Of a stretch of 64,000 bases of DNA, positions 318 through 27,498 are shown piece after piece. Under the pieces are notes generated by a model. That model made no database searches. It had not been told where the DNA came from and saw only the letters and a list, made by a program, of their open reading frames with translations. The position numbers and the translations under genes were made by a program. Every line of letters begins with the position of its first letter. Positions within the stretch are counted from its first letter, which is position 1. This stretch comes from Clostridia bacterium (GTDB taxonomy: Bacteria > Bacillota > Clostridia > Oscillospirales > CAG-272), in assembly GCA_017453305.1 (NCBI GenBank), contig JAFTKJ010000006.1, positions 20,966 through 84,965 on the forward strand. Reading direction: 5' to 3'.

Positions 318-346
318 TTGACAAATGCACCAAAAAAGGATATAAT
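318..346 (+). promoter_or_regulatory. Promoter of the ToxI-ToxN module
   Basis: TTGACA at 318-323 and TATAAT at 341-346 with a 17-base spacer: a perfect consensus pair placed immediately upstream of the 36-nt antitoxin repeats. Confidence 0.85.
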
Positions 347-352
347 ATAAAT

Positions 353-497
353 GTGGGTGTATCTCAGCCCTAAATGAGAAACTTACTAAGCGAACTTCTC
401 TTGGTTCTTTCAAGAAAGTTACAAGTGAGTGTTTCGCTACTCAGAATGCGAAAGTTATGTGATGAGGGCAAGGCACACTTGCCCTCATTTGCTATTT
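353..497 (+). ncRNA. ToxI-like antitoxin RNA: 36-nt repeats ending in an attenuator terminator
   Basis: Downstream of the consensus promoter, two degenerate 36-nt units begin GAAACTTAC (378) and GAAAGTTAC (414), and a third partial unit begins GAAAGTTAT (450). The spacing is exactly 36 nt. They are followed by a strong hairpin and then the toxin gene. Promoter, repeated RNA antitoxin, leaky terminator and toxin is the defining layout of type III toxin-antitoxin systems, where each repeat folds as a pseudoknot that binds one toxin monomer. The repeats are degenerate and fewer than in the classical ToxIN, so the number of active units is uncertain. Confidence 0.75.
463..497 (+). terminator. Attenuator terminator between antitoxin RNA and toxin
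   Basis: Perfect 10-bp stem TGAGGGCAAG / CTTGCCCTCA with loop GCACA, then TTTGCTATTTT. Its place between repeats and toxin fits the partial read-through terminator that sets the RNA to toxin ratio in type III modules. Confidence 0.8.
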
Positions 498-508
498 TGG
501 AGGACTCA

Positions 509-994
509 ATGGACAACCTTAAGCTTTACGAAATTAACGCAAGCTATATTACATACCTCTCGGCGTATGCTCCGCATCTGTTTCAGAATAAGAAGTCCGG
601 GCAGAAGAACGAGAGGAAATATATCGGTATCGTTTTACATATCAATAGCTTTGATTACTTCGCGCCGCTTTCCTCGTTCAAGGACAAGCACAAGCTGATG
701 AAGGAAGGGCTTGATTTTATTAAGATCAAGGACTATGCCGTTATCAATCTGAACAATATGTTCCCGGTGCCGCTGAGCGAAACCAAGTACGTTGACATCA
801 GAAACGAGCCTGATCCGCACTACCGCGCTTTGCTTCTCGCCGAGTACCGTTATATCAAGTCAATTCAAGAGAAGATTTGGAAGAACGCGCAGAACGTATA
901 TAAGATTAAAATCAAGGACGGCGATGCTTCATCTCTCGCCAAGCGCTGCAACGATTTTCTTCTGCTTGAGAAGGCGTGCAAATATTACAGATAA
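509..994 (+). CDS. Type III toxin-antitoxin system ToxN/AbiQ-family endoribonuclease toxin
   Basis: Predicted 161-aa sequence-specific RNase that cleaves host mRNA unless held by its RNA antitoxin; such modules commonly abort phage infection. Seen: N-terminal LKLYEINASYITYL (residues 4-17), RKYIGIVL (36-43) and FAPLSSFKDKH (51-61), the pattern of the ToxN/AbiQ fold, in which a Tyr near residue 10 and a Thr/Ser-Ser-Lys group near residue 55 are important. The start at 509 is chosen because TTGGAGG lies just upstream and the longer frame from 374 would run through the antitoxin repeats and terminator. Expression should depend on read-through of that terminator. The module lies inside the guaA island, consistent with horizontal transfer. 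Family assignment is strong; activity is inferred. Confidence 0.85.
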   Translation: MDNLKLYEINASYITYLSAYAPHLFQNKKSGQKNERKYIGIVLHINSFDYFAPLSSFKDKHKLMKEGLDFIKIKDYAVINLNNMFPVPLSETKYVDIRNEPDPHYRALLLAEYRYIKSIQEKIWKNAQNVYKIKIKDGDASSLAKRCNDFLLLEKACKYYR

Positions 995-2841: not shown

Positions 2842-3438
2842 ATGGAACTTCGGGGAAAACAAACGGTGAGAACACCTATGGACGATGAAAAGATCGTTGC
2901 CCTTTATTGGGAACGCGACGAAAAAGCGATTGAGGAAACCGATTTCAAATACAAGAAATATCTGTTTTCCATTGCTTATAACGTTCTTCACGACCGACTT
3001 GACTGCGAGGAATGCTTGAACGATACATACCTTGGCGCGTGGAACGCAATTCCACCTACAAAACCGAATGTGCTCAAAGCATTTTTGACGACGATCACAC
3101 GAAGAATTGCGATCAAACGCTACCACAGCAAAGGAAAACAGCGTGTGATACCTTCCGAAATGACGTCTTCTCTTTCCGAGCTCGAAGATTTCGTAGCCGG
3201 TGACGGTGACGTTGATGCGGATTTTGATGCGGAGAGACTTGGGCGTGTCATCAGCGACTTTGTTCGCTCGCTTTCCGAACGCAGACAATTCATATTTATG
3301 AGTCGGTACTACTTAGCCGATCCCATTGATACAATTGCAAGTGACTTGAGTTTGAGCCGTTCAATGGTGAACAAGGAGCTTGCCGCCATCAGAAGTGCCT
3401 TGAAAGAAAAACTTGAAAGTGAGGGGTATTCGATATGA
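2842..3438 (+). CDS. RNA polymerase sigma factor, sigma-70 (ECF-like) family
   Basis: 198 aa. Region 2 is visible in SIAYNVLHDRLDCEECLNDT with GAWNAIPP following, then the TTITRRIAIKRYH helix. An acidic linker leads to region 4, ending RSMVNKELAAIRSALKEKLES (the recognition helix area). The start at 2842 follows GGAGGAGG by six bases; a shorter start at 2878 (MDDEK) would align better with the paralogue at 40091, so the N-terminus is slightly uncertain. It overlaps the next gene by four bases (ATGA), and that gene encodes a membrane protein, the usual sigma/anti-sigma layout. A TATAAT at 2742 may be its promoter. Confidence 0.85.
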   Translation: MELRGKQTVRTPMDDEKIVALYWERDEKAIEETDFKYKKYLFSIAYNVLHDRLDCEECLNDTYLGAWNAIPPTKPNVLKAFLTTITRRIAIKRYHSKGKQRVIPSEMTSSLSELEDFVAGDGDVDADFDAERLGRVISDFVRSLSERRQFIFMSRYYLADPIDTIASDLSLSRSMVNKELAAIRSALKEKLESEGYSI

Positions 3439-4319
3439 AAAAGAAAGAATGGAATGAAGGTTTGAATCACATTGATCCCGATCTTGTTGAAAAATACGTC
3501 CTGCAAAAGGAGCGGCTCAGAGAGAAAAACAAAAAGCCGAAAAGCGCATGGTTGCGTTTTGGAGCAATCGCGGCTTGCTTTGTGCTGGTTTTGAGTGCAG
3601 TCATCATTGTGCCGCTGTTGCGAGAAGATGATCCGGGTGTTATTCCGGGACCGGGGGGTATTCCGGGACCGGGGGTTGAAATTATTCTTCCTTCTCCTCC
3701 GGAGTATTCTTCGTATGACTATGAGTCTTACAATGACATTCATGCCGCTTTGACAAATCCACTTGCTCCTCAATTTGAACAATTGCGGACTGAACAGAAA
3801 AATTGCGGTGAGCTATATCAGCAAACTCTATCGGATTTCGCTTCGGGCGAGATAAAGGTTGCAGTACCTCAAATTGGAGGGAAAAATATTGACCTTCGCA
3901 ATCAAGAAGGGTTTAGCAATGTAACTTGGTTTACGAATGAATTATATAATCTTCCGTGGCTGTGGTATCATTGTTTGATAAACGAACAGGATTTGACAGT
4001 AAGTATCGCATATTTGAGTGTACTTGATCGAACTGAACTGAATTCTGCCACATCGTATTACCAAGTCTTAAAAATGATCTCTCCTAATTCGCCTTCTCCG
4101 GATAATTATAAGAAATCAGCATCCTATAAAAACATATATGAGAAAGAAATCACACTCGGAAATGGCGAGACGGTCACCGCCATGATCTCGGAGTTAAAGA
4201 ACGATTCCAGAATCTACGTCTGCCTGTATTTGGATGGTATGCTGGTAACTTTACGTGGGGATGAGGCATTGCTCACAGAGGCGTTTTTTCGGACATTCAA
4301 TATGGCGTATATGAAATAA
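3435..4319 (+). CDS. Single-pass membrane protein, probable anti-sigma factor
   Basis: 294 aa, translationally coupled to the sigma gene. A charged cytoplasmic N-terminus (about 1-38, with LNHIDPDLVEKYV) is followed by one transmembrane helix (about 42-60, FGAIAACFVLVLSAVIIV), a low-complexity Pro/Gly linker made from a tandem DNA repeat (GIPGPG units), and an extracytoplasmic domain of about 200 aa. The N-terminal segment resembles that of the membrane protein paired with the second sigma factor (40639). Gene order and topology suggest it binds the sigma factor until an external signal arrives. The outer domain is not recognised. Confidence 0.65.
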   Translation: MKKKEWNEGLNHIDPDLVEKYVLQKERLREKNKKPKSAWLRFGAIAACFVLVLSAVIIVPLLREDDPGVIPGPGGIPGPGVEIILPSPPEYSSYDYESYNDIHAALTNPLAPQFEQLRTEQKNCGELYQQTLSDFASGEIKVAVPQIGGKNIDLRNQEGFSNVTWFTNELYNLPWLWYHCLINEQDLTVSIAYLSVLDRTELNSATSYYQVLKMISPNSPSPDNYKKSASYKNIYEKEITLGNGETVTAMISELKNDSRIYVCLYLDGMLVTLRGDEALLTEAFFRTFNMAYMK

Positions 4320-6243: not shown

Positions 6244-8199
6244 ATGAAAATCAGTATTGTAAGGGATAGCGAAACTCTGCGCTACGCCGCGGAGGAGCTT
6301 GCAAAATATTTGCATCTGATGGATGCGGACGTCAGCGCCGAGGTGTTGGTATCCAATGCATGCGGAGAGGGCATCACACTGGGATTGCTCTCCGATCTTG
6401 GATTGCCGACGGATGACGTGGATGACGAGATGATCGACGACGTCATCGATGCAGATATCAACGCGCTTTGTGGCTACGTTGCAGGCAGCAACGAACGAAG
6501 CGTGCTGATGGGGGTTTACAATTATCTCAAGTCGGCAGGGTGCTATTGGGTGCGTCCCGGTGCCAATGGCGAATATATTCCGCAAAAAAGCATGAAGGAG
6601 CACGTGTTCCGCATGCGCAAAAAGGCAGATTATCCCTTCCGCGGTCAATGCATCGAGGGGGCTGTCAGCTTCGAGCACGTGTACGAAACCATCCTCTGGC
6701 TCCCCAAGGTCAATATGAATTTGTTTATGATCGAGCAGATCATTCCTTACAACTATATGAACCGTTGGTATCGTCACACGGTCAACACACGCCTGGATGA
6801 GAGCAACGAGCCGCCTTACGAGCAGTATTGCGCATACGTCGACGAATGGGAAAAAGCAATTAAAAAGTGCGGCTTGCAGTTCCACGCATTGGGACACGGC
6901 GCACTCAACGAGCCATTTGGAATCAGACATATGATCTCGGGGCAGCATTACGACGTGCCCGAAGAGACCAAAAAGGCGTTTGCCTTGGTTGGCGGCAAGC
7001 GCGAGCTTTGCAATTCTTCTCCATTCTTTACGCAGGTCTGCATGTCGCAGGATTGGGTACGCAAGAGAATTGTCACTTGGCTTGCCGACTATCTGGAGGA
7101 GAAGCCCTACATCGACTTTTTGCATTTTTGGCTTGCGGACTACAAAAACAACCATTGCGAATGCGAGGACTGCATTCAAAAAACGCCCTCCGATTGGTAC
7201 GTGCAAATGCTCAACGAGTTGGATGCCGAGCTGACTACGCGCGGAAATCATGCAAAAATCGTCTTTATCATGTACGTAGATACGCTTTGGCCGCCCATTG
7301 TTGAAAAGCTGAACAATCCGCGCCGCTTTATTCTGACCACTGCGGCAACCACACGTGCACCGGGGGACACCTACTCCGACCGTCGTTGCCCGGACGGAAT
7401 TCCTGCGTGGAAGCGAAATCAGCATTCCTCTCCCAACAAGGGCTTTGAGCAGCTGCTCTCCTTTGTTGACGCATGGAAGCCCGTATTTGACGGACCGCGC
7501 TTTTTGTTTGAATACTTCCTTTACACCAAGCATTTTGAGGATCCCGGCTACATGCAATTTTCGCGCAACCTGGCACGGGATATGAAGCATCTGCATCTGA
7601 CGGGTTTCCACGGTGTGATGAGCGATCAGACCCAGCGCGCCTCTTTCCCGACGGGATTGCCGAATGCAATGCAAGGTGAGTTCCAATTTGACAGCAGTGC
7701 TGACGTCGAGGCGTACATCGATTCTTACATGCAGGTGTCCTTTGGTACGGATTGGCAGGCGGCGAAGAATTACCTTGACGGTATCACGCAATTGTTTGCG
7801 GTGGATTCCTTGGCACAAAAGACCGACGTCACCGCGCAGGATACGGGGGCAGAGGACGACCATTCCAAAAAAGCGGATATTTTTGGCAACGAAGAGGCAG
7901 GGAAGAGCATTGCGCAGGTTTCGGCATACGTCGATGCGTTTGCGGATACGGTGACAAAAAATCTGCAGGTCTCCGATCCTTGTCAGCGTGAGTCCTGGCG
8001 TATCCTTGTCTACCACGGTGAATACTGCAAGCGTCTTGCAGGCATTTACGTGGAGCTTTCTAAAAACAATGCTGAGGGCGCAACGCGCTTGCTTGACAAT
8101 ATGATCGACTATCTTTCCGAGGTCGAGCCCGAGATCCATTCCTACTTTGACCTGGTCCTTTTCGCTCAGCGCATCAAGCAGATCATCGCAGGCATATGA
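6244..8199 (+). CDS. DUF4838-type glycosidase-like protein
   Basis: 651 aa, start after AAGGAG. An N-terminal domain (about 1-110, ISIVRDSETLRYAAEELAKYL) of the kind that precedes alpha-glucuronidases and GH20-like enzymes is followed by a TIM-barrel-like region (about 125-480). The CxCxxC motif at residues 305-310 (CECEDC) sits where DUF4838 proteins carry it. The C-terminal part is helical. No signal peptide. Likely acts on oligosaccharides delivered by the transport system that uses the lipoprotein encoded next. The substrate is unknown; N-acetyl-sugar or uronic-acid glycosides fit the neighbourhood. Confidence 0.6.
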   Translation: MKISIVRDSETLRYAAEELAKYLHLMDADVSAEVLVSNACGEGITLGLLSDLGLPTDDVDDEMIDDVIDADINALCGYVAGSNERSVLMGVYNYLKSAGCYWVRPGANGEYIPQKSMKEHVFRMRKKADYPFRGQCIEGAVSFEHVYETILWLPKVNMNLFMIEQIIPYNYMNRWYRHTVNTRLDESNEPPYEQYCAYVDEWEKAIKKCGLQFHALGHGALNEPFGIRHMISGQHYDVPEETKKAFALVGGKRELCNSSPFFTQVCMSQDWVRKRIVTWLADYLEEKPYIDFLHFWLADYKNNHCECEDCIQKTPSDWYVQMLNELDAELTTRGNHAKIVFIMYVDTLWPPIVEKLNNPRRFILTTAATTRAPGDTYSDRRCPDGIPAWKRNQHSSPNKGFEQLLSFVDAWKPVFDGPRFLFEYFLYTKHFEDPGYMQFSRNLARDMKHLHLTGFHGVMSDQTQRASFPTGLPNAMQGEFQFDSSADVEAYIDSYMQVSFGTDWQAAKNYLDGITQLFAVDSLAQKTDVTAQDTGAEDDHSKKADIFGNEEAGKSIAQVSAYVDAFADTVTKNLQVSDPCQRESWRILVYHGEYCKRLAGIYVELSKNNAEGATRLLDNMIDYLSEVEPEIHSYFDLVLFAQRIKQIIAGI

Positions 8200-8246: not shown

Positions 8247-8274
8247 GGAGGCTTTGTCAATTGACAGAGCCTCC
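8247..8274. promoter_or_regulatory. 28-bp near-perfect palindrome overlapping a -35 box (candidate operator)
   Basis: Symmetric about 8260/8261: half-site GGAGGCTTTGTCAA matched by TTGACAGAGCCTCC, 13 of 14 base pairs complementary. It covers the -35 of the solute-binding-protein promoter, so a dimeric repressor could block it. It could also act as a terminator stem for the upstream gene, but no T-run follows. Confidence 0.55.
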
Positions 8275-8289
8275 TGTTCGTGCTATACT
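8261..8289 (+). promoter_or_regulatory. Promoter of the solute-binding lipoprotein gene
   Basis: TTGACA at 8261, 17-base spacer, TATACT at 8284. Confidence 0.75.
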
Positions 8290-8329
8290 GAAAAAGTAGA
8301 ATTATTATAATAAGAGAGAAGGAGAAAGT

Positions 8330-9874
8330 ATGAAAAAATTTTTGATTCTTATACTGACCCTGACGATGGTAGCATCTCTCCTCATTTCCTGCACTACGGG
8401 AAACGGAAACGATGATACCACGCCTGCAGACGATGGCAAAAATGAAGTTACCACACCTGAAGAGGGGGGCGACGACGACGGACTCCCCGAGGTGATCGAC
8501 ATGAGCTCCAACGGGCAGGACTACGTTTACAAGGCATACGTTCGCTCCAAGGAGGACGGAGACCTTGGAAACGGCGGATTTTTGTGTGAGGATTTCTGGG
8601 TAGCCGAAACCAGCGAGGACGCACTTTCCTTTGCTGTGTATACCAGAAACAATACCATTCAGGAGACCTATCACTGCCGCATCCACCAGCAGGATTCCAC
8701 CGGTTCTACGTATCAGGAGCTGAAGGATTTCTATGCGAACAGCGAAAAGTACGATCTTTCCATTCTTCTGGCAATTGAGGCAGCACCTGCCGCAACCTCC
8801 AATCTGTTGCAGGATATCAAGTCAATGGGTCACGTCGATCTGACGCATTCCTCCTATGACCAGAACTCTGTTGCACAGTTCTCTATGGGTGGCAAGCTCT
8901 ACTATCTGAGTGGAGACATGAACATTTCTACTATGGATAATACGGCTCCTACCGTTGTAAACATTGAAATGTACAACAGCCACAAGGAATCCTTTGTTGA
9001 GGCCTTCGGCGACGAAATTTACAGTAATATCTATGATCTCGTTACCGAGCACGAGTGGACGATGGATACGCTTTTGACCATGGCAGAGATCGTTAACGTG
9101 GACCAAAACAAGTCCGACGGTGCACTTTCCGTCACCAAGCAGGATACGCTGGGCTATTTCCAATATTCCGCATCTCCTCTTTACTATTTCTACGGTGCGG
9201 GCGGTCGCATCACGCAGATCGATGAGGACGGTTATCCCGAGCTTGTCATCGGTGAGAGCATCAATCAGGAAATCTACGATTACGTCTACAGAAATCTGAA
9301 CACCGTCTCCACGTCTTGGATCCCCAACGGCAACTCCGGCCCGCGCGGTGATAACTTCTACGGCGGCGTTTGCCTCTTTACAGACATGACCCTTTGGGAT
9401 ATCCGTAAGATCCTTTACACCAAGGATGCATTTGAGTACGGTATTATTCCGAACCCCTTGTACGAGGCAGGGGATGATTATCACGGCGTGGTATATTTCC
9501 AGGGCTGTGCGCATCTGTGGAGTGTTCCCAACATGTGCACCAACCAGGAATATGCTGAGCGCATGCTGCAGATCCTGACCGTTTACTCCGGTATGAAGGA
9601 TTCCACTATGGATGCTTACTATACCAAGACCATGTATATGACGGTTGCACAGGATAAGGGCTCGAGAGCGGCAATGGATATCATTCGCACCTCCCTGGTA
9701 TATGACATTGCACTGCTTTACGACTGGGGTGGCTTCCAAGATCTGCTTCTGAATGCAGATACCGCAACCTCTAATCAGTACCAGACCTATTACAACAAGC
9801 TCGACGTTGCCGAGGAGGCAATGCAGTTGACCCTGGAGCAGTTCAAGAACCCGACCTACGTTCCCGATAACTGA
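8330..9874 (+). CDS. Extracellular solute-binding lipoprotein (ABC sugar uptake type)
   Basis: 514 aa. Signal peptide MKKFLILILTLTMVASLLISC with a lipobox (LISC, Cys21), then an acidic Thr/Asp-rich linker, then a large mature domain with Tyr/Trp-rich segments (for example GYFQYSASPLYYFYGAGGR and YFQGCAHLWSVPN) typical of family 1 solute-binding proteins for sugars. Length fits the oligosaccharide binders. No permease or ATPase genes are adjacent, so it must work with a transporter elsewhere. The terminator at 9914 and palindromic operator make it a single-gene unit. A direct regulatory link with the glycosidase gene upstream is likely but inferred. Confidence 0.65.
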   Translation: MKKFLILILTLTMVASLLISCTTGNGNDDTTPADDGKNEVTTPEEGGDDDGLPEVIDMSSNGQDYVYKAYVRSKEDGDLGNGGFLCEDFWVAETSEDALSFAVYTRNNTIQETYHCRIHQQDSTGSTYQELKDFYANSEKYDLSILLAIEAAPAATSNLLQDIKSMGHVDLTHSSYDQNSVAQFSMGGKLYYLSGDMNISTMDNTAPTVVNIEMYNSHKESFVEAFGDEIYSNIYDLVTEHEWTMDTLLTMAEIVNVDQNKSDGALSVTKQDTLGYFQYSASPLYYFYGAGGRITQIDEDGYPELVIGESINQEIYDYVYRNLNTVSTSWIPNGNSGPRGDNFYGGVCLFTDMTLWDIRKILYTKDAFEYGIIPNPLYEAGDDYHGVVYFQGCAHLWSVPNMCTNQEYAERMLQILTVYSGMKDSTMDAYYTKTMYMTVAQDKGSRAAMDIIRTSLVYDIALLYDWGGFQDLLLNADTATSNQYQTYYNKLDVAEEAMQLTLEQFKNPTYVPDN

Positions 9875-26595: not shown

Positions 26596-27498
26596 TTAAA
26601 GCATGGTTTGCGTATCGTTGGGATCTCCCTCGCGTGCGAGCTTGTATTCCTCCGACCAATCCAGATAGCGGTATTTTTCACCTCTGGGATCGGTTTGGAT
26701 CCAATTGGTCAGCATATCAAGCATTTCCTCGGTCCAGGTCGCTCTGTCGATCTGCGCGGTGGTAAATCTGCCCGCGGAGATCATATCAAAGCCAAAATCA
26801 TCCTTGACGTGCGTTTTTGCCGCGCCCTCAACAACCTCCTTGACCAGGTGGCTGGGAATGAACAGCACGCCGCCGCCCGCACCGTATACAATATCACCGG
26901 GAAGAACGGTTGCCTTGCCGATTCTCGTAATGCCGTTAAAATCCTTGATGACAAACTCACGGATCGGGGTGGGGTCAATGCCTCTGTAATAGACCTGAAC
27001 GTCGGGGACCTGCTTCATCTGCTCGGTATCGCGGATGCCGCCCCAAATAACGCCGCCGCCCGTTTTGGTACGGGTGCGAATGGCAGTGGTCAGGTTTCCG
27101 CCAAGAAAGGTGCCCTTGTAGATCTTGTCGTACATGTCAACCACCACAACGTCGCCCTCGACCAGCGTATCGATCACCCACTGATTGAAGTTGCCCTTTC
27201 TGCCTTCCTTTTTTCCTTGCCCCATGGCAACGTCCAAAAGGTCGGGACGGGTGGGGACGTAGGTCGCGGTAACGGCACGGCCGATCAGCTTTCTGCCGTC
27301 GTCGTGCAGGGTTTTGAGGTCGCCCTCAAATTGGCTTTCGTAGCCCTTTAAGTAGATGGGCTTCCAAAGCTCCTCCAGGGTCATTTTATACATTTCATCG
27401 ATGTACTTTTGCTCTACCTTCGGGCGTCCGTCGGGGAATCTTTCTCCTTTCCAAAGGGGAGTCAAGGCAATAATTTCATCTCTGTCATTAAATTTCAT
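26596..27498 (-). CDS. RraA-family protein (aldolase-like)
   Basis: 300 aa. The RraA/HMG-aldolase core is visible: DGRKLIGRAVTATYVP, a GTFLGGNLTTAIRTRTKTGGGVIWGGIRD block with the substrate-binding Gly-Arg and metal Asp, then PGDIVYGAGGGVLFIP. Extensions of about 60 aa at each end make it longer than classic RraA (about 160). Last gene of the hexuronate operon and overlapping the GH39 gene by four bases. Family members cleave or decarboxylate 2-keto-4-hydroxy acids; in this operon it could act on a keto-acid such as KDG or a derivative, since no kdgA is present. That role is inferred. Confidence 0.75.
   Translation of the reverse strand: MKFNDRDEIIALTPLWKGERFPDGRPKVEQKYIDEMYKMTLEELWKPIYLKGYESQFEGDLKTLHDDGRKLIGRAVTATYVPTRPDLLDVAMGQGKKEGRKGNFNQWVIDTLVEGDVVVVDMYDKIYKGTFLGGNLTTAIRTRTKTGGGVIWGGIRDTEQMKQVPDVQVYYRGIDPTPIREFVIKDFNGITRIGKATVLPGDIVYGAGGGVLFIPSHLVKEVVEGAAKTHVKDDFGFDMISAGRFTTAQIDRATWTEEMLDMLTNWIQTDPRGEKYRYLDWSEEYKLAREGDPNDTQTML

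Follow-up and report, generated by a model that had tools for sequence, protein, structure and literature searches.

A predicted type III toxin-antitoxin module of a gut Clostridia bacterium with an antitoxin array of three non-identical pseudoknots

Can an array whose units share little beyond a linker motif act as the antitoxin of a ToxN-type toxin, or is it the remnant of a classical repeat array? The question is raised by a locus of a gut bacterium, located near the start of the window, i.e., the whole stretch of 64,000 nucleotides analyzed here. An initial annotation had read the locus as a type III toxin-antitoxin module with degenerate repeats.

The toxin gene and its surroundings

The module spans positions 318-994 and comprises a promoter, an array, an 11-bp hairpin and the gene for a 161-aa toxin, in that order (Table 1). 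The layout of the ToxIN family, with the promoter 5' of the array and a terminator before the toxin, is present, by consensus matches; the promoter and terminator calls are such matches, and a promoter match is no sign that the promoter is used. The perfect promoter of the initial annotation is confirmed, all 12 positions of the sigma-70 type consensus being present. Its 10-bp attenuator stem is indeed perfect but measures 11 bp.

A ToxN/AbiQ-like toxin had been proposed at the outset, together with a ToxN profile search that could refute it. The search returned a match: Pfam ToxN_toxin (PF13958) covers residues 4-160 with 158.9 bits (E 1.5e-46; cut-off 25). The PADLOC AbiQ model scores 124.3 bits, and the toxin also matches four solved ToxN/AbiQ chains (4ato, 2xd0, 7d8o and 4glk), which bears out the assignment. 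These family matches, along with the toxin tree described below, support the type III module reading on the level of sequence. The active-site residues of ToxN are given as K33, T52, S53 and K55 (PMC5086642, PMC8860590). In the alignment to 2xd0 they correspond to R36, S55, S56 and K58 of the toxin; R36, S56 and K58 are kept in all 50 rows of the clade alignment and S55 in 49 of the 50. Judged from this alignment, the active site is retained, with K33 to R and T52 to S as conservative replacements.

We also considered translation through the array, as a frame of 206 aa (374-994) stays open in register with the 36-nt spacing, which equals 12 codons. This was rejected: GGAGG serves the ATG at 509, the Pfam match to the 161-aa form already starts at its residue 4, and the loop lengths of unit U1 differ among relatives, so that the frame would shift.

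The host genome, about 80% complete as assembled, contains a single ToxN-type gene and a single array of this type. The module and the gene that follows it lie between imperfect direct repeats at 227-298 and 2394-2677 (19 nt at 89%, 47 nt at 74%), which may mark a mobile boundary. The matches of two relatives (L006 and L008) start at window position 235, where their contigs end, and the main matches of three others (L003, L005 and L007) end at 979. The gene directly after the toxin (1006-2292, 429 aa) shows weak TPR-type matches below cut-off, and its DNA is kept only in L002 among 17 close relatives compared by blastn. Further on, at 2842-4319, a gene with a sigma-70 region 2 match (a sigma factor, probably ECF) is followed by a gene without Pfam match.

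Table 1 Features of the module, with positions counted from the first letter of the window.
Feature	Position	Strand	Basis
Promoter, sigma-70 type	318..346	+	TTGACA 318-323, 17 nt, TATAAT 341-346; 12/12 consensus
Pseudoknot U0, GGGT-gta-TCTCA-GCCC-taaa-TGAGA	355..379	+	knot search; helices 1 and 2 with 99.5 and 100% of cells paired
U0/U1 linker and predicted ToxN cut site GAA^ACTTAC	378..386	+	direct reading; cut by analogy with E. coli ToxN (PMC8860590)
Pseudoknot U1, GAAC-ttc-TCTTG-GTTC-ttt-CAAGA	392..415	+	knot search; helices 3 and 4 with 100 and 99.6% paired
U1/U2 linker and predicted ToxN cut site GAA^AGTTAC	414..422	+	direct reading; cut by analogy with E. coli ToxN
Pseudoknot U2, conserved core	427..451	+	knot search (there as 426-453); helices 5 and 6 with 100% paired
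U2 3' tail and third predicted cut site GAA^AGTTAT	450..458	+	direct reading
Terminator/attenuator hairpin in the array-toxin gap	461..489	+	perfect 11-bp stem, 462-472 with 478-488; terminator-like
Ribosome binding site GGAGG	499..503	+	read directly from the sequence
toxN/abiQ-like toxin gene, 161 aa	509..994	+	PF13958, PADLOC AbiQ, solved ToxN/AbiQ chains

Three pseudoknots in the array

The motif GAAACTTAC / GAAAGTTAC / GAAAGTTAT occurs at 378, 414 and 450 with a spacing of exactly 36 nt and the consensus GAAA(C/G)TTA. A search of 353-460 for H-type pseudoknots, run without knowledge of this linker motif, recovered three knots in register. Their best-three score of 70.2 was reached by none of 150 dinucleotide shuffles (mean 34.1, maximum 58.7). 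The three knots have different stems and one shared architecture. In the core of U2, GAGT (427-430) pairs with ACTC (439-442) and TCGC (434-437) with GCGA (448-451); in many relatives the 3' tail of this unit reads nnGTAAC instead of GAAA, unlike the linker motif. Depending on where transcription starts, U0 of the window may have no 5' tail. Two further knots proposed in a search of a wider stretch were not counted as units; the one at 459-485 shares sequence with the terminator hairpin, and the other, at 488, is weak.

The array had initially been described as two and a third repeats. The 36-nt spacing of that description holds, whereas the count does not: it omitted the first knot at 355-379, which precedes the first GAAACTTAC, and what it took for a third of a repeat, at 450, belongs to the third knot as its 3' tail. 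The proposed check for an H-type pseudoknot finds one in each unit, by pairing and covariation, as is a feature of the ToxIN family. Near-identical tandem nucleotide repeats, also a family feature, are absent from the window by Tandem Repeats Finder (TRF), with the pseudoknot as a structural repeat instead. Rfam returned no family covering the array at E values up to 5, and a blastn search for plasmid copies of the array found none.

Pairing was assessed in relatives, of which 82 were fetched: two from viral contigs and, out of 110 in named genomes, the best 80. The alignment has 50 rows (49 distinct) chosen by motif, which represent 57 of the 82 relatives considered plus the window; the other 25 (L046, L050, L051, L055-L059, L061-L064, L067-L069, L071-L079 and L081) were excluded on the basis of the motif or manually. 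Across the six helices of the 49 distinct loci, 99.8% of the 1274 pair cells hold standard pairs. Changes on both sides occur at 7 of 26 pairs, in 56 cells, with a covariation score of 0.152. The paired fraction, the both-sides counts and the covariation score were each reached by 0 of 500 shuffles, and control structures slid by 1-3 columns had 36-54% of cells paired. In stem 1 of U1, both sides have changed at three of the four pairs (in 15, 13 and 11 sequences). Such changes are present in five of the six helices, helix 6 having none. The number of further pair types does not stand out, being equalled or exceeded in 463 of 500 shuffles, and 14 of the 26 pairs are invariant and thus uninformative on covariation.

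To compare the units with each other, we used 37 loci with toxins less than 90% identical (mean 66%), which provide 111 units. Laid in one register, a count that includes a fifth stem-2 pair often missing in U2, these have 97.1% of 999 cells paired, versus a mean of 82.2% and a maximum of 84.2% in 500 shuffles, and 173 doubly changed cells versus a mean of 57.7 and a maximum of 76 (500 shuffles). The outer pairs of stem 2, beside the linker, are near-universal, with U-A in 110 units and U-G in one, followed by C-G in all 111.

Units within one locus show mean identities of only 0.55-0.64. Same-position units of different loci reach 0.93, 0.81 and 0.84, compared with 0.58 for units of different position, and the nearest neighbor of every one of the 111 units is the same-position unit of another locus. 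Over the 666 locus pairs, mean identity is 0.92 for the stems, 0.82 for the linker motif and 0.71 for other array columns; the third codon positions of the toxin have 0.42 over the same pairs. By these comparisons, the units are three non-identical, structurally equivalent pseudoknots and no decayed copies. Avoided mispairing as the sole cause of their divergence was rejected, since pairing across units is possible in most representatives: with wobbles allowed, the 5' strand of U0 stem 1 could pair fully with the 3' strand of U1 or U2 in 33 of 37 each, and the 5' strand of U1 stem 2 with the 3' strand of U0 in all 37.

Distribution in one toxin clade and detection by repeats

A tree of 89 toxins, in which the clade was sampled mainly via the window toxin and the rest via Pfam searches and seven similarity records, places 50 in one clade (SH-aLRT 99). 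With limits of 0.70 and 0.80 that we set for heterogeneous and repeat-like arrays, the 50 clade representatives comprise 43 heterogeneous arrays, 5 intermediate ones, 1 repeat-like and 1 without upstream sequence. The single repeat-like member, L057, has two U0-like units. The 39 toxins outside the clade divide by the same index into 29 repeat-like, 6 intermediate and 4 heterogeneous. As sampled in this tree, the heterogeneous array is a trait of one ToxN clade, and arrays of unlike units are also seen outside it (L092, L094, L105, L126, L131, L138 and L139).

Record titles of the relatives include Clostridia, Oscillospiraceae, Lachnospiraceae, Faecalicoccus, Holdemanella, Treponema and Selenomonas. 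In four Treponema/Spirochaetaceae loci (L046, L050, L073 and L078) the knots again number three, with stems that are largely different, and the toxins are 62-64% identical in the best segment. In samples drawn blind to the array, from PF13958 matches that in some cases outnumbered the loci fetched, the clade accounts for 6 of 10 fetched loci at the family level, 8 of 29 at the class level and 1 of 15 at the phylum level.

Unit number and order vary to some extent. Two units are found in L055 (the same locus as L103), one in L077 and L081, and one plus an odd one in L071, L074 and L075. A second U0-like unit replaces U1 in L057, L058, L153 and L265, and two unlike U0-type units precede U2 in L059, L063 and L072. 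Automatic labeling gave the order U0-U1-U2 in 50 of 90 labeled loci, mis-chaining by the knot finder being part of the shortfall; the U2-type unit comes last in these 50, in three U0-U0-U2 and in two U0-U2 loci.

In a screen of E. coli, tandem arrays were spotted by hand and verified by TRF at settings 2/7/7 and score 50 (PMC8860590), and a review describes the same tandem-array search logic (PMC5086642). At those settings, with periods below 25 ignored, identical upstream sequences counted once (96 to 81 and 39 to 38) and clade membership of off-tree loci assigned by origin, TRF reports the array in 2 of 81 distinct clade loci (L057 and L058) versus 25 of 38 others. Before removal of duplicates the counts are 2/96 versus 25/39, and for full-length toxins only, 2/77 versus 24/35. 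In the window the repeats on which published screens rely are absent; taken strictly by them, the module is no ToxIN member, and we file it as a variant. Because most clade loci fail this repeat criterion, their antitoxins would tend to go unrecognised while the toxin is recognisable. Among the papers listed in our literature searches, the titles and abstract openings hold no mention of non-identical units.

Proposed mechanism and comparison with known systems

From the potential knots with their pairing and covariation, the position-specific conservation, the toxin homology and the assignment to one clade, all of them features of sequence, we consider it very probable that the locus is a type III module of the ToxIN/AbiQ kind which works like ToxIN, with three non-identical, structurally equivalent pseudoknots as antitoxin. 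For transcription, cutting, inhibition, the 3:3 ring and the fixing of unit number, we infer the following course. One promoter would yield the array transcript; the hairpin would stop most transcripts, and a minority would read on into the toxin gene. ToxN, as a sequence-specific RNase, would cut the precursor in the GAAA(C/G)UUA linkers. By analogy with E. coli ToxN, which cuts GAA^AU (PMC8860590), cuts are predicted after 380, 416 and 452, giving a 5' unit of ~28 nt and two 36-nt units. These products would keep ToxN inactive, probably as a 3:3 ring like that of the ToxIN complex (PMC5086642), and three units would supply one ring.

Recognition would proceed via the shared parts, i.e., the outer UC/GA pairs of stem 2, the fold and the linker, so that the stem interiors could diverge. 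ToxI activity is reported to stay intact after a compensating pair of stem changes (PMC3475682), which likewise suggests that stems may diverge. Divergence would take away the identity needed for slippage and tend to fix the unit number at three. Repeat number has been seen to vary, with slippage proposed (PMC3475682), and phage defence by AbiQ drops if a unit is gained or lost (PMC5086642, PMC5772629). Divergence may thus lock the number of units; such locking is not absolute, as one- and two-unit loci exist.

Arrays also occur without an adjoining toxin gene. In the genome of L055 (G594), three two-unit arrays stand beside a single toxin match; arrays without a toxin of their own (L055:2590-2710, G594 C26:17503-17578 and 27020-27095) lie 0.3 and ~10 kb from a complete module. 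The viral contig L335 (IMGVR_UViG_3300026522_000176), which carries terminase, portal and major head protein genes, contains three knots at 7768-7960 with all 26 stem pairs kept (101 bits, E 3.6e-20). Both inner linkers are without the TTA motif, and a promoter-like site with 10 of 12 matches precedes the array. No terminator was found by scan and no ToxN match on the 13.3 kb of this contig, which may be a fragment. The array is possibly a phage antitoxin decoy.

The U0 pattern matches 12 viral stretches, some of them near-duplicates, and a ToxN gene adjoins seven; a control pattern with the last five bases reversed had no match in viral sequences. Pattern scans with ~14-15 fixed bases gave mostly chance matches among those listed, and the U0-pattern match in L175, inside an apparent reading frame, was taken as such. 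One or two ToxI-like knots lie on the viral contigs L166 (9434-9541), L186 (5830-5920, minus strand) and L221 (8110-8160, minus strand), without ToxN match. AntiQ-like knots without a ToxN match in the loci covered are present in L478 (3525-3660, identical to 8258-8393 of Lactococcus phage 05802) and L167 (7840-7880), where they sit between the resolvase and endolysin genes of small Lactococcus phages. Part of the stretch is matched by 28 Lactococcus phage records, the large ones listed (AM1, P1048 and others) sharing a 39-nt piece only. In L477 (6480-6750), the contig passes from this Lactococcus phage locus directly into the apparent antiQ terminator and AbiQ gene start of L137, which makes it a recombinant phage or a chimeric assembly. 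L474 (G398 C22:15547-15658, minus strand) has an array of another type, with three units and a hairpin after it, in a genome for which no PF13958 match is listed. We set aside L471, a worn array with no ToxN match listed for its genome, and L463, whose contig ends just past the toxin start. Taken together, these arrays without toxin suggest that antitoxin RNAs are carried by phages in nature.

The initial annotation had suggested that each repeat drifted, or that only the second and third are functional. In the same vein, the locus could be a decayed classical ToxIN array of which one or two units suffice, as the low identity within loci and the full antitoxicity of a single repeat in CptIN (PMC4627078) would allow. 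Drift, however, would not preserve three separate identities: the units are conserved position by position, as the nearest neighbors document without exception, stems are kept with paired changes in five of six helices, and they are far better conserved than the third codon positions of the toxin. Decay is thus already contradicted by the data, and we give it hardly any credence. No more plausible is a riboswitch-like or attenuator leader that controls the toxin gene in cis without a trans-acting antitoxin. The array does lie between promoter and toxin together with a terminator-like hairpin, and it is covered by no Rfam family at E values up to 5; yet its interlaced knots have the topology of type III antitoxins and are joined by an A-rich linker, and arrays without adjoining toxin gene exist in L055/G594 and L335.

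Ordered assembly of the ring, in which each knot of one transcript takes a fixed place and the units are not interchangeable, would account for the position-specific conservation and for the U2-type unit in last place, and three units fit the 3:3 ring of ToxIN (PMC5086642). Loci in which a U0-like unit replaces U1, loci with one or two units, and the full order in just 50 of 90 labeled loci argue against it, which leaves it rather unlikely. To be held with similar reserve is the idea of a pre-programmed kit, in which three different knots form the fixed edges of one 3:3 ring, stoichiometry and order are encoded in the RNA, and phages answer with uncuttable three-knot decoys such as that of L335. 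On the preferred reading, three equivalent units recognised through their shared parts, knots that differ in their stems may all serve one and the same ToxN. The features read by the toxin (linker, outer pairs and shape) would then be set apart from those free to vary, and the interchangeability of type III antitoxin units and the stabilisation of unit number by divergence become testable.

Like ToxIN of Pectobacterium, Bacillus and E. coli and AbiQ/antiQ of Lactococcus, the module encodes a ToxN_toxin family protein preceded by tandem pseudoknots of ~36 nt, a hairpin before the toxin and an A-rich cut motif. The clade departs from ToxIN in one tested feature, the near-identical repeats by which such systems were sought: units of ToxIN and AbiQ/antiQ are near-identical, as in the AbiQ-type relative on a plasmid (L137; 3.1 copies with 96% matches by TRF), unlike those within a locus of the window clade. 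CptIN of Eubacterium rectale also belongs to the type III systems, comes from a gut Firmicute and contains H-type pseudoknots, but it has 45-nt repeats and a 2:2 complex (PMC4627078); the window toxin matches ToxN_toxin, in a comparison that covered the profiles of Pfam and PADLOC. A phage-borne, toxin-less ToxI-like sequence is known as pseudo-ToxI in phage PhiTE, and those of L335, L166, L186, L167 and L478 resemble it in this respect. Wild-type PhiTE carries 1.5 repeats, which must expand to act (PMC3475682), whereas L335 carries three whole knots with altered linkers.
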